Of a DNA stretch of 64,000 nt, positions 25,051-35,301 are shown piece after piece (the first letter of the stretch is position 1; every line of letters begins with the position of its first letter). This stretch comes from Klenkia marina. GTDB taxonomy: Bacteria > Actinomycetota > Actinomycetes > Mycobacteriales > Geodermatophilaceae. Below the pieces are notes generated by a model. The model made no database searches and was not told the origin of the DNA. It saw only the letters and a program-made list of their open reading frames with translations. A program made the position numbers and the translations under genes. Location of the stretch: assembly GCF_900101025.1 (NCBI RefSeq), contig NZ_FMUH01000007.1, positions 62,001 through 126,000 on the forward strand. The letters run 5' to 3'.

Positions 25051-25103
25051 CGTGGGGTGACCCTCTGCGCGGCGTGCGTACCATCTGCGGCACAACCGAA
25101 CAC

Positions 25104-25190
25104 ACGACAGGGGAGCGCCTCGGCGCTGAGAGTGCGGGCAACCGCAGACCCTCGAACCTGAACCGGGTCATGCCGGCGTAGGGAGTCTGG
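25104..25190 (+). promoter_or_regulatory. TPP riboswitch (thi box)
   Basis: The conserved pyrimidine-sensing CTGAGA is at 25126-25131 and the pyrophosphate-sensing block ACCTGAACCGGGTCATGCC runs from 25156, followed by GGCGTAGGGAG. These are the hallmark TPP aptamer segments. The aptamer ends about 10 bases before the ykoE GTG, with the GGAG ribosome site at 25189-25192 inside or next to its closing stem, so control of translation initiation by thiamine pyrophosphate is likely. Confidence 0.93.
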
Positions 25191-25199
25191 AGCAGCACC

Positions 25200-25781
25200 G
25201 TGTCCGTGCAGGACCGCACCACCGTCAGCACCCGTTGGCGCACCGTCGACATCGTGACCACCGCCGTGCTCGGGGTGGCCTTCGGCGTCGTGTTCATCCT
25301 CTGGAACCTGGTCAACTCGGCCGTGGCCCTGGTCCCGCCGGTGGGCGGGATCATGAACGGGGTCTACCTGCTGCCCGGCGTCGTCGCCGGCCTGCTGGTG
25401 CGCAAGCCGGGCGCAGCGACCTTCGCCTCCACCCTGGCCGCCGCGGTGAGCCTGCTGGCCTCGCCCTACGGCGGGATCATCGTGGTCTACGGCCTGGTGC
25501 AGGGCCTGGGCGCCGAGCTGGGCTTCGCGCTGGCCCGCTACCGCTCCTTCGGCTGGGGCACCGCCGTGCTCGCCGCGGTCACCGCCGGGCTGGCGACCAC
25601 GGTGCTGGACATGACGATCTACTACCCCGCGGTGTCCTTCTGGGCGGTGAAGGTGCCCTACGGCGCGCTCACCGTGCTGAGCAGCGTGGTGGTCGCCGGG
25701 GTGCTGGGCCTGCTGCTGGTGCGCGCCCTGGCCCGCACCGGTGCGCTGAGCGCCTTCGCCTCGGGCCGCAGCCGCGTCTGA
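25200..25781 (+). CDS. ykoE: Thiamine/HMP ECF transporter substrate-binding subunit YkoE
   Basis: 193-residue membrane protein with about five helices, FILWNLVNSAVALVPPVGGIMNGVYLLPGVVAGLLVRKPGAA being characteristic of the YkoE family of S components. It binds thiamine or its pyrimidine precursor for uptake by the YkoCD energy module. It sits directly under a TPP riboswitch, so it is repressed when thiamine pyrophosphate is abundant. GTG start with GGAG seven bases upstream. The ATPase gene follows one base after the stop. Confidence 0.92.
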   Translation: MSVQDRTTVSTRWRTVDIVTTAVLGVAFGVVFILWNLVNSAVALVPPVGGIMNGVYLLPGVVAGLLVRKPGAATFASTLAAAVSLLASPYGGIIVVYGLVQGLGAELGFALARYRSFGWGTAVLAAVTAGLATTVLDMTIYYPAVSFWAVKVPYGALTVLSSVVVAGVLGLLLVRALARTGALSAFASGRSRV

Positions 25782-33697: not shown

Positions 33698-35074
33698 TCA
33701 CAGATCCGTGTCGGGTCCGCTCCAGTCGACCGCGGCCAGCAGGCCCGCCAGGCGCCCGCCGCGGGCGGGGTGCACCTGGGCCACCCAGGCGACCCGACCG
33801 GCCAGGTGCCGGCGCAGGGCGTGCCGGTCGCCGTCGAACGCGGCGAGGTCGGCCGCCGAGGGCCCGCGCCGGACGGCGTTGGTCAGCCGGGCGCGCAGGG
33901 CGTCGAGCTCGGCCCGGGGCAGGGACGTCCGGTCGTTGACGACGACGCCGGTCACCGTCTGCCGGGCACCGCGCCCGCGCACGCGGGTCTTCGTGGGCTG
34001 CACGGTGAAGCCCTCCTCGGCGACCACGGCCGCGACCCGGTGCCGCAGCCCGGCCGTGCCGCGCCGGCCGGAGAACGTGAGGTCGTCGGCGTAGCGGGTG
34101 TAGACCGCGCCGGCCGACGCGGCCAACCCGGCCAGTCGACGGTCGAGCCGGTGGGCGGCGAGGTTGGCCAGCTGCGGCGAGGTGGGCGCCCCCTGCGGCA
34201 GGTGCGGGAGGGCGAGCGCGGCGCGCACGTGGTCGCGGGCCCCGGGGGTGCCGCCGGCCGGCATGGTGGCCAGGTCGTCGCGGGTGGCCCGGGTGGTGCA
34301 CAGGCCGGTGATCAGCGCGGCCACCGGCTCGGGGTAGCCGGCGCTGCGCAGGGTCGCGAACACCCGGCCGGAGCGGACCGTCGCGAAGAAGGCGGCCAGG
34401 TCCATGGTCAGCAGCTGCTCGGCGCCCACGTGCTGCCGGGCGCCGGTCAGCGCCGAGCGGCCGGCCACGAAGCCGTGCGCTGCCGGGTGCGGCGGCACCG
34501 GGGCGAGCACCGCGTCGAGCAGCACCCGCTGCACCCGGCGCAGCCGCGGGGTGGGCACCTCCACCAGCCGGGGCACCCGGCCGGGCCGGGCCAGCCAGTG
34601 CCGGCGGTACAGCTGGAGGTGGCCGGCGGGTTCGGTGCGCTGCCGGTCGAGGGGGTCGGCGTACCAGCGCAGCTGGTCGAGGTCGGTGGCCAGCAGCTCG
34701 GCGACGTCGGACAGGTCGTGCAGCGGGTGCACCGGCCACCGGGCGCGGCCCATGCGGGTGGCCGTCGGCAGCCACTCGCGCACCCGGGGCTCGGGGACCG
34801 GCGGCGGCAGGTCCTCCTCGTCGTCGTACCCGGGCGGCTCGGCGGGCGGGTGCTCCCGGGCGGCGCTGAGGTAGCGGGCGAACTCGCCCGGGGCGTCGCG
34901 GGGCGGCTCCCGCCAGGCGGCCACCGTGGCCGCGGCCAGGGCGGGCAGCCAGTCGGGCGCGGGATCCAGGGCGCGGCGGCCCCGGGCGGTGAGGCCCTCG
35001 ACGGTCCAGGGTCCGTCGGCCAGTAAGGCAGTGGCCAGCGCCCGCGCGGTGCGCTGCTCGGGGGGCTGCTTCAC
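33698..35074 (-). CDS. Retron-type reverse transcriptase
   Basis: 458 residues from a GTG at 35074. Motifs in order: AHGFVAGRS at 199-207, LTMDLAAFF (first catalytic Asp 225), LPQGAPTSPQLAN at 292-304, YTRYADDLTFSG (Asp 330 and 331), and QTVTGVVVN with the VTG triplet (374-376) typical of retron enzymes. All catalytic residues are intact. Residues 1-110 are an N-terminal extension with an acidic Pro-rich linker (PPGYDDEEDLPPPVP) and no recognised domain. No maturase or endonuclease domain of group II introns is present. The structured RNA candidate at 35089-35252 ends 14 bases before the start. No Shine-Dalgarno site is visible. Retrons are anti-phage systems, and the effector is not evident here. 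Confidence 0.88.
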   Translation of the reverse strand: MKQPPEQRTARALATALLADGPWTVEGLTARGRRALDPAPDWLPALAAATVAAWREPPRDAPGEFARYLSAAREHPPAEPPGYDDEEDLPPPVPEPRVREWLPTATRMGRARWPVHPLHDLSDVAELLATDLDQLRWYADPLDRQRTEPAGHLQLYRRHWLARPGRVPRLVEVPTPRLRRVQRVLLDAVLAPVPPHPAAHGFVAGRSALTGARQHVGAEQLLTMDLAAFFATVRSGRVFATLRSAGYPEPVAALITGLCTTRATRDDLATMPAGGTPGARDHVRAALALPHLPQGAPTSPQLANLAAHRLDRRLAGLAASAGAVYTRYADDLTFSGRRGTAGLRHRVAAVVAEEGFTVQPTKTRVRGRGARQTVTGVVVNDRTSLPRAELDALRARLTNAVRRGPSAADLAAFDGDRHALRRHLAGRVAWVAQVHPARGGRLAGLLAAVDWSGPDTDL

Positions 35075-35088
35075 GTGGAACAGCGGGG

Positions 35089-35252
35089 TGCGGTGGTGGG
35101 GGTCGACCTGACCCGTCGTCCCGGCGTACGCGTGCGCGGAGCGCACCGACACGCCGGAGGCGTGGTGGTGGAGGCTGCGTGCGGTCCCCGGGGCATCCCC
35201 GGAGCTGCCGCGCCGACCTGCGGAGCGGCACCCTCGACCGCCCACCACCGCA
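35089..35252 (-). ncRNA. Candidate retron msr-msd RNA
   Basis: On the reverse transcriptase strand, arms at 35252-35234 and 35106-35089 pair over 18 bp (TGCGGTGGTGGG, then GGTCGA) with one bulged base at 35240, like retron a1/a2 repeats. Inside are TGCCGC/GCGGCA (35230-35225 with 35211-35206), CTCCGGGG-ATG-CCCCGGGG (35204-35186), and a longer hairpin in which CCGGCGT (35157-35151) pairs with ACGCCGG (35127-35121) around GTGCGC-TCC-GCGCAC. The first two would be msr stems and the last the msd stem. An alternative CACGCC-TCC-GGCGTG hairpin competes with it. The branching guanosine was not identified. Confidence 0.7.
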
Positions 35253-35301
35253 TGCCCGACACCCTCCCAGAACCCCCTTCCGGAGCGCTACGGTGCCGGA
35301 C

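Follow-up and report, generated by a model that had tools for sequence, protein, structure and literature searches.

Retrons have been explained as three-part guard systems in which a complex of reverse transcriptase (RT), RNA, and DNA restrains a toxin. The tripartite numbered defense retrons carry a linked or fused effector, and Retron-Eco1 (Ec86) likewise has a separate effector. Surveys have found putative retrons in Actinobacteria, for which the consulted part of Simon 2019 (PMC6868368) gives no clade-level detail. The same part of that paper describes Mx162 and Sa163, in which we recognize several features of the unit reported here: an N-terminally extended RT (a likeness by description), inheritance within close species, and a priming G where the a1 stem ends, comparable to our candidate G. 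However, the Mx162 msd measures 162 nt, compared with about 79 nt inferred here. A preliminary description of the locus considered retrons of high-GC actinomycetes sparsely characterized, and the literature we searched agrees, as none of its papers contained any of six phrasings for retrons in actinobacteria or Streptomyces. The RNA is undescribed in that literature, including the consulted portions of PMC8565338, PMC12262390, and PMC8934634; retron classification papers may report the clade or its RNA.

We analyzed a 64,000-nucleotide stretch of the Klenkia marina genome (NZ_FMUH01000007.1, positions 62,001 to 126,000; referred to as the window), in which the preliminary description had proposed a retron made up of an RT gene and an adjoining msr-msd RNA. 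By sequence tests the unit looks like a retron, and this interpretation is supported by the class of the RT, the covarying RNA, and the linkage between the two. Our preferred reading, to which we assign a probability of roughly 0.8, is that the chromosome carries here a two-part retron whose clade lies outside the numbered types, with a predicted msDNA of about 79 nt and without a linked effector. The comparisons used 94 loci, one per RT group, after removal of duplicates and of loci with a best RT match of 60 bits or less. Protein counts refer to 75 of the 86 loci in which the RNA was found, with 11 loci excluded for short, broken, or oddly long frames. A redundancy filter left 56 of these 75 RTs, of which 55 were aligned (alignment A4; L088 was left out).

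The RT gene occupies positions 33698 to 35074 on the minus strand (coding region, 33701 to 35074) and encodes 458 amino acids plus a stop codon. Its likely start is a GTG at 35074, separated from the a2 arm of the RNA by 14 nt. A longer frame of 516 amino acids from 35248 is mechanical and reads through the RNA region. We rejected the upstream region as coding, and favor the GTG, because in 36 of the 75 relatives a stop codon interrupts the frame between the RNA 5′ end and the RT start and because RNA lengths are spread evenly modulo 3. No other protein in the 4.22-Mb genome matched RVT_1.

Two PADLOC models, RT_other (PDLC02949; 481.9 bits) and RT_outgroup (PDLC03740, description "retron"; 480.0 bits), match the window RT over nearly its full length, N-terminal extension included. 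Both are protein models only, with no attached RNA, effector, or type number, and they were also the top two for five other family members scanned (456 to 584 bits). The next-best models were clearly lower, namely, type XIII (PDLC02956; 278.2 bits, about 200 below the top) and type III-A (234 bits), and the best models therefore belong to none of types I to XIII. The search of solved structures gave 15 matches, of which the top 14 were retron proteins. Ec86 ranks first and has the same msr-msd-RT order, but it matches only part of the RT core and not the N-terminal extension. None of the NCBIfam retron models reached its cutoff (154.6 versus 600, 151.9 versus 235, and 130 versus 450 bits). In a tree of 57 RT cores, for which the references were 13 rows of other retrons and 3 of group II introns with no type XIII sequence, the RNA-bearing members and one further family RT (L042) formed a single clade of 40 rows (support, 100/99) inside the retron RTs. 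Type XI and a Methylobacterium RT joined this clade with support of 97/95, five III-A rows fell outside it, two others were unresolved, and the group II introns split off at 100/100. These RTs thus belong to the retron RT lineage, in a clade outside the numbered types. As the earlier proposal required, they fall among retron RTs and away from group II introns, and the Drt2 model reached 29.1 bits against a cutoff of 390. That the locus is instead a remnant of a group II intron, diversity-generating retroelement (DGR), or CRISPR-associated RT beside chance hairpins would agree with RVT_1 being the only Pfam domain. We consider this exceedingly improbable given the tree split, a group II maturase-RT score of 46.8 bits against a cutoff of 300, and the covariation of the RNA pairs described below.

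The active-site motif YADD and the previously noted VTG triplet of region Y are present in the window protein. Across the 75 relatives, the Y, D, and D of the active site are conserved in every sequence, as is the H of region X, where the NAxxH motif reads GARQH in the window, with the N replaced. The last G of VTG is found in 74/75 relatives, while the middle T is found in only 18/75, and VTG is no family signature for these RTs. According to the consulted part of Toro 2014 (PMC4244168), 47% of retron RTs carry VTG and 59% carry NAxxH.

Fold, alignments, and a covariance model delimit a structured, msr-msd-like RNA of 164 nt, from a1 to a2, at positions 35089 to 35252 of the minus strand. Its a1 arm (35234 to 35252) and a2 arm (35089 to 35106) pair over 18 bp with one bulged base, as the preliminary description had claimed and direct reading of the sequence confirms. 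The outer 12 bp join TGCGGTGGTGGG (35252-35241) to CCCACCACCGCA (35100-35089), and past the bulged C at 35240, the inner 6 bp join GGTCGA (35239-35234) to TCGACC (35106-35101). Enclosed by the arms are msr hairpin I (35207 to 35229), which is variable in sequence with covarying pairs, and msr hairpin II (35186 to 35204; CUCCGGGG-AUG-CCCCGGGG), which is the most conserved element and has 8 pairs in the family consensus and 6 in the minimum-energy fold of the window. The inferred msd template stretch (35108 to 35185) contains a hairpin from 35158 to 35120 with the previously noted TCC loop, in which TGCGC-TCC-GCGCA is enclosed by a 7-bp CCGGCGT/ACGCCGG stem. The minimum-energy fold (−104 kcal/mol; z, −3.63; equaled by 1 of 200 shuffles) contains the closed a1/a2 helix, both msr hairpins, and the msd hairpin with its TCC loop.

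Taken alone, the arms of the window are only moderately beyond chance for a single GC-rich sequence. In an ungapped arm search with the same geometry, 33 of 249 dinucleotide shuffles scored as high as the window (33), and so did 44 of 247 other genomic stretches. Comparison supplies the strong evidence; a score of at least 40 was reached in 67 of 83 family loci, compared with 5/249 shuffles and 7/247 genomic stretches. Chance arms, which the window by itself leaves possible, are ruled against by the comparison across relatives.

We examined covariation in three alignments, comprising 17 sequences with an RNAalifold structure (A1), a separate set of 32 (A2), and all 86 fitted to the model (A3). 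All three lean towards structure, as A1 and A2 were trimmed to arms found by complementarity and A3 was model fitted; in an untrimmed upstream alignment of 8 sequences, the arms already change together. In A1, 96.2% of 628 cells were paired, and 21 of 37 pairs had changes on both sides. The covariation score was 0.355, compared with 0.140 in shuffles (0/500 as high), and sliding the partners by one to three columns lowered pairing to 38 to 48%. A2 gave the same architecture, with 97.7% of cells paired, 12/40 pairs doubly changed, and again 0/500 shuffles as high, and in A3 95.6% were paired and 32/37 pairs were doubly changed. Arm sequences diverge widely between lineages while complementarity is retained. 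Within the outer a1/a2 helix, double changes affect all 10 pairs in the model-fitted A3 and 7/10 in A1, which was not model fitted. Conserved pairing of the arms in homologues, on which the earlier proposal depended, is therefore borne out by compensatory changes.

The covariance model (R1) was built from 17 relatives, which are counted among its matches. It found one RNA each in 86 of the 94 RT loci (69/77 among nonseed loci), with no second match at an E value of 0.01 in the 1.06 Mb of these loci. The RNA lay on the RT strand and upstream of the gene in 86/86 matched loci, at a median of 9 nt from the end of the RNA model to the RT start (75 loci with intact frames). The eight loci missed comprise L042 and seven with distant RTs, namely, three with III-A RTs (L008, L116, and L117), one with a type XI RT (L056), and three in which no PADLOC model matched at 1e-70 (L057, L060, and L118). 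L042 is a natural RNA-less case among family RTs, having no RNA match in its 4.3-kb locus and an ABC-transporter-like frame upstream. In 20 genomes chosen from the 112 of the family, the RNA was present in 8/8 with the RT (one each) and in 0/12 without it, with 137 first-look candidates, part of all, scored per genome. K. marina itself gave one match (150 of 11628 first-look candidates scored). Beyond the family, the model matched three Burkholderia loci with the same layout (L142, L161, and L162) at 44 to 53 bits and loci in Tsukamurella and Dietzia at 51 to 53 bits; the annotated RT of L162 begins 8 nt past the RNA. There was no credible match at the Methylobacterium relative, which is 44% identical across 62% of the query, or at six loci of other retron RTs. 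Covariance-model support, as envisaged in the preliminary description, was therefore obtained with our own model but not with the Rfam retron families, none of which reached its gathering score over the window. The RNA family is absent from Rfam, and the RNA region gave two chance-level matches only (E values of 3.5 and 7.4). The only Rfam match at gathering score in the window was a TPP riboswitch at 25099 to 25201 on the plus strand (64.7 bits).

Several signals in the RNA suggest how it might be used. Directly after a1, position 35233 is a G in 83/86 sequences and a gap in the other three. Known retrons prime at the G ending the a1 stem (Simon 2019 [PMC6868368], consulted in part), which makes this guanosine, the first base inside the a1/a2 helix, a candidate priming (branch) site. 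The stretch from hairpin II to a2, with boundaries that we set on A3, measures 77 to 85 nt (median, 79) in 86/86 sequences. Upstream of the RNA, a promoter-like TANNNT box starts 3 to 16 nt before the model start in 63/86 loci, compared with 0/86 and 3/86 in two control upstream stretches; the window departs from this pattern, reading GAGGGT at the −10-like position directly 5′ of a1 (35261 to 35266). The upstream structure could alternatively regulate the RT gene in cis, as a leader or attenuator, in which case the RT would use another template. Its distance of a median 9 nt from the RT start is where a leader could act, and the presence/absence pattern in the 20 genomes is compatible with both functions. 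Nevertheless, we consider a leader quite unlikely, because a template-primer RNA would account for the closed a1/a2 helix with its pair of msr hairpins and single msd hairpin, for the invariant G where the helix ends, and for an msd of almost uniform length.

A further alternative concerns the cDNA itself. In the DRT2/DRT9 class, an RT has a neighboring RNA and no separate effector, and the cDNA product itself acts. The two-part layout without an effector would suit such a system, by analogy, but the position of the RT in the retron clade, the low Drt2 score, and the a1/a2 and priming-G design, which is that of retrons, all argue for a retron instead. A Neo-like endless frame in the inferred cDNA was found in 41/86 sequences against 42.9 expected from shuffles, a null result on which we rejected this candidate; the RNA strand had an endless frame in 54/86 (a raw count without a shuffle expectation). 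We regard a DRT2/DRT9-like system as unlikely.

At the RT start codon, the window carries a palindrome, GTTCCACGTGAA (35070 to 35081), retained as [AT]TCCACGTGAA in 6/6 genus loci with the RNA. CACGTG occurs at this place in 8/86 loci and in 1/86 at each of three control places, and GTTYCACGTGRA has five matches in the window (two overlapping) and none in shuffles. We take this palindrome to resemble actinobacterial parS.

Unlike the tripartite numbered defense retrons, the unit has no linked effector that we could find among frames of at least 110 amino acids within 7 kb in 58 loci (BLAST matches above 100 bits). No general neighbor emerged in this sample except the RT cluster. The best others occurred in 7/58 loci, all of one family code (f15), and a second frame cluster, in 21 of the 58 loci, was mostly antisense to the RT. 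Nor is an effector fused to the window RT as a Pfam domain, since RVT_1 is the sole domain matched. Among congeners, the DUF1697 gene and the permease gene that flank the unit are adjacent in all three RT-less genomes (G001, G005, and G007), with a spacer of roughly 110 to 125 bases, and the RT sits before the permease in G002, G003, G004, and G008. With the site so cleanly empty, the unit cannot accommodate an additional gene. An effector might still have been overlooked, either as a short or fast-changing gene beside the RT or elsewhere in the genome. Retrons typically comprise an effector (PMC12548924, consulted in part), and the size, score, and distance limits of our scan could have hidden one. 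However, the gaps in the window are only 69 bases between the RT end and the permease frame and about 50 bases between a1 and the DUF1697 start, which together with the adjacent flanking genes and the low, single-family neighbor count make an overlooked effector possible but doubtful. It overlaps with the preferred reading of a two-part retron, which also allows an unlinked partner.

Within the unit, the N-terminal extension of the RT (34760 to 35074, minus strand) is about 105 amino acids long in the window and about 95 residues in most relatives, and it is present in 52 of the 55 aligned, with W23 and P58 nearly invariant. It is without a Pfam family, as searches with the window and L125 sequences gave no match and L162 gave one subthreshold match. 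Because the RTs of L099, L101, and L054 lack this domain, it is a weaker candidate for a universal effector. At L120 (5321 to 6961), about 600 extra bases split the RT match into two halves within one 830-amino-acid open frame.

Protein searches, own genome included, found the RT in 6/9 genomes of the genus and 50/112 of the family, and in 87/348 sampled genomes of the order and 28/396 sampled in the phylum, where most matches were weak and covered part of the RT core. The named relatives are Klenkia soli, in which the unit is present, Modestobacter sp. Leaf380, and Patulibacter minatonensis. The RT also occurs on records labeled plasmids in Burkholderia, Tsukamurella, and Dietzia, although the Tsukamurella record contains polA and rpsA and looks chromosomal. 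A phage-borne element was rejected, as 93 viral loci (80 top-ranked RT relatives out of 223 and 13 motif hits) gave no RNA match at an E value of 0.1; six phage records held only RTs of 26 to 31% identity. Two family genomes (G004 and G072; loci L008 and L117) encode a type III-A retron RT in addition to the clade member.

Comparison of the window RT with that of L121 gave a dN of 0.13, a dS of 0.39, and a dN/dS of 0.33, and comparison with L123 gave a dN/dS of 0.50. These ratios indicate purifying selection, yet the protein changes fast and the constraint is loose. Some copies of the unit are probably decaying, as suggested by RT matches in two or more neighboring pieces in 8 of the 50 matching family genomes (G049, G051, G053, G071, G079, G081, G082, and G100) and by matches spread over more than one frame in 4/86 loci. 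In Burkholderia pyrrocinia BX1, all that is left of the queried unit is its final 177 bases (L256, 3001 to 3177; 93.8% identity), adjoining a transposase gene. G003 is the most distant congener in a midpoint-rooted permease tree yet carries the unit, which makes it likely that the unit has been repeatedly lost from, or exchanged at, one site; the nesting of its RT inside the others in the RT tree fits exchange.

From these data we infer how transcription, priming, and msDNA synthesis might proceed. Transcription would start at a1, and the transcript would form the a1/a2 helix together with a pair of msr hairpins and a single msd hairpin. This RNA would be bound by the RT, whose gene lies directly downstream on the same strand. 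The enzyme would prime from the 2′-OH of G35233, and about 79 nt adjoining a2 would be copied into msDNA that stays joined to the msr and the RT. Because there is no linked effector gene, the output would come either from the RT-RNA-DNA complex itself, for which most members offer the N-terminal domain as a candidate, or from a host protein that is not linked to the unit. The likeliest role appears to be dispensable and defense-like. We tentatively suggest, at somewhat less than even odds, that this is a widespread effector-less retron clade, found in Actinomycetota and in some Burkholderia. The RT-RNA-msDNA particle by itself would then be the whole system, perhaps acting through the N-terminal domain that is conserved in most of the RTs. 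A deep clade with a tight RNA-RT pair and no toxin gene found beside it raises the question of what msDNA does alone. For dozens of species, the RNA model predicts which base primes, how long the msd is, and where its boundaries fall. Together with the RT, the RNA is also a candidate tool for retron editing of high-GC actinomycetes.
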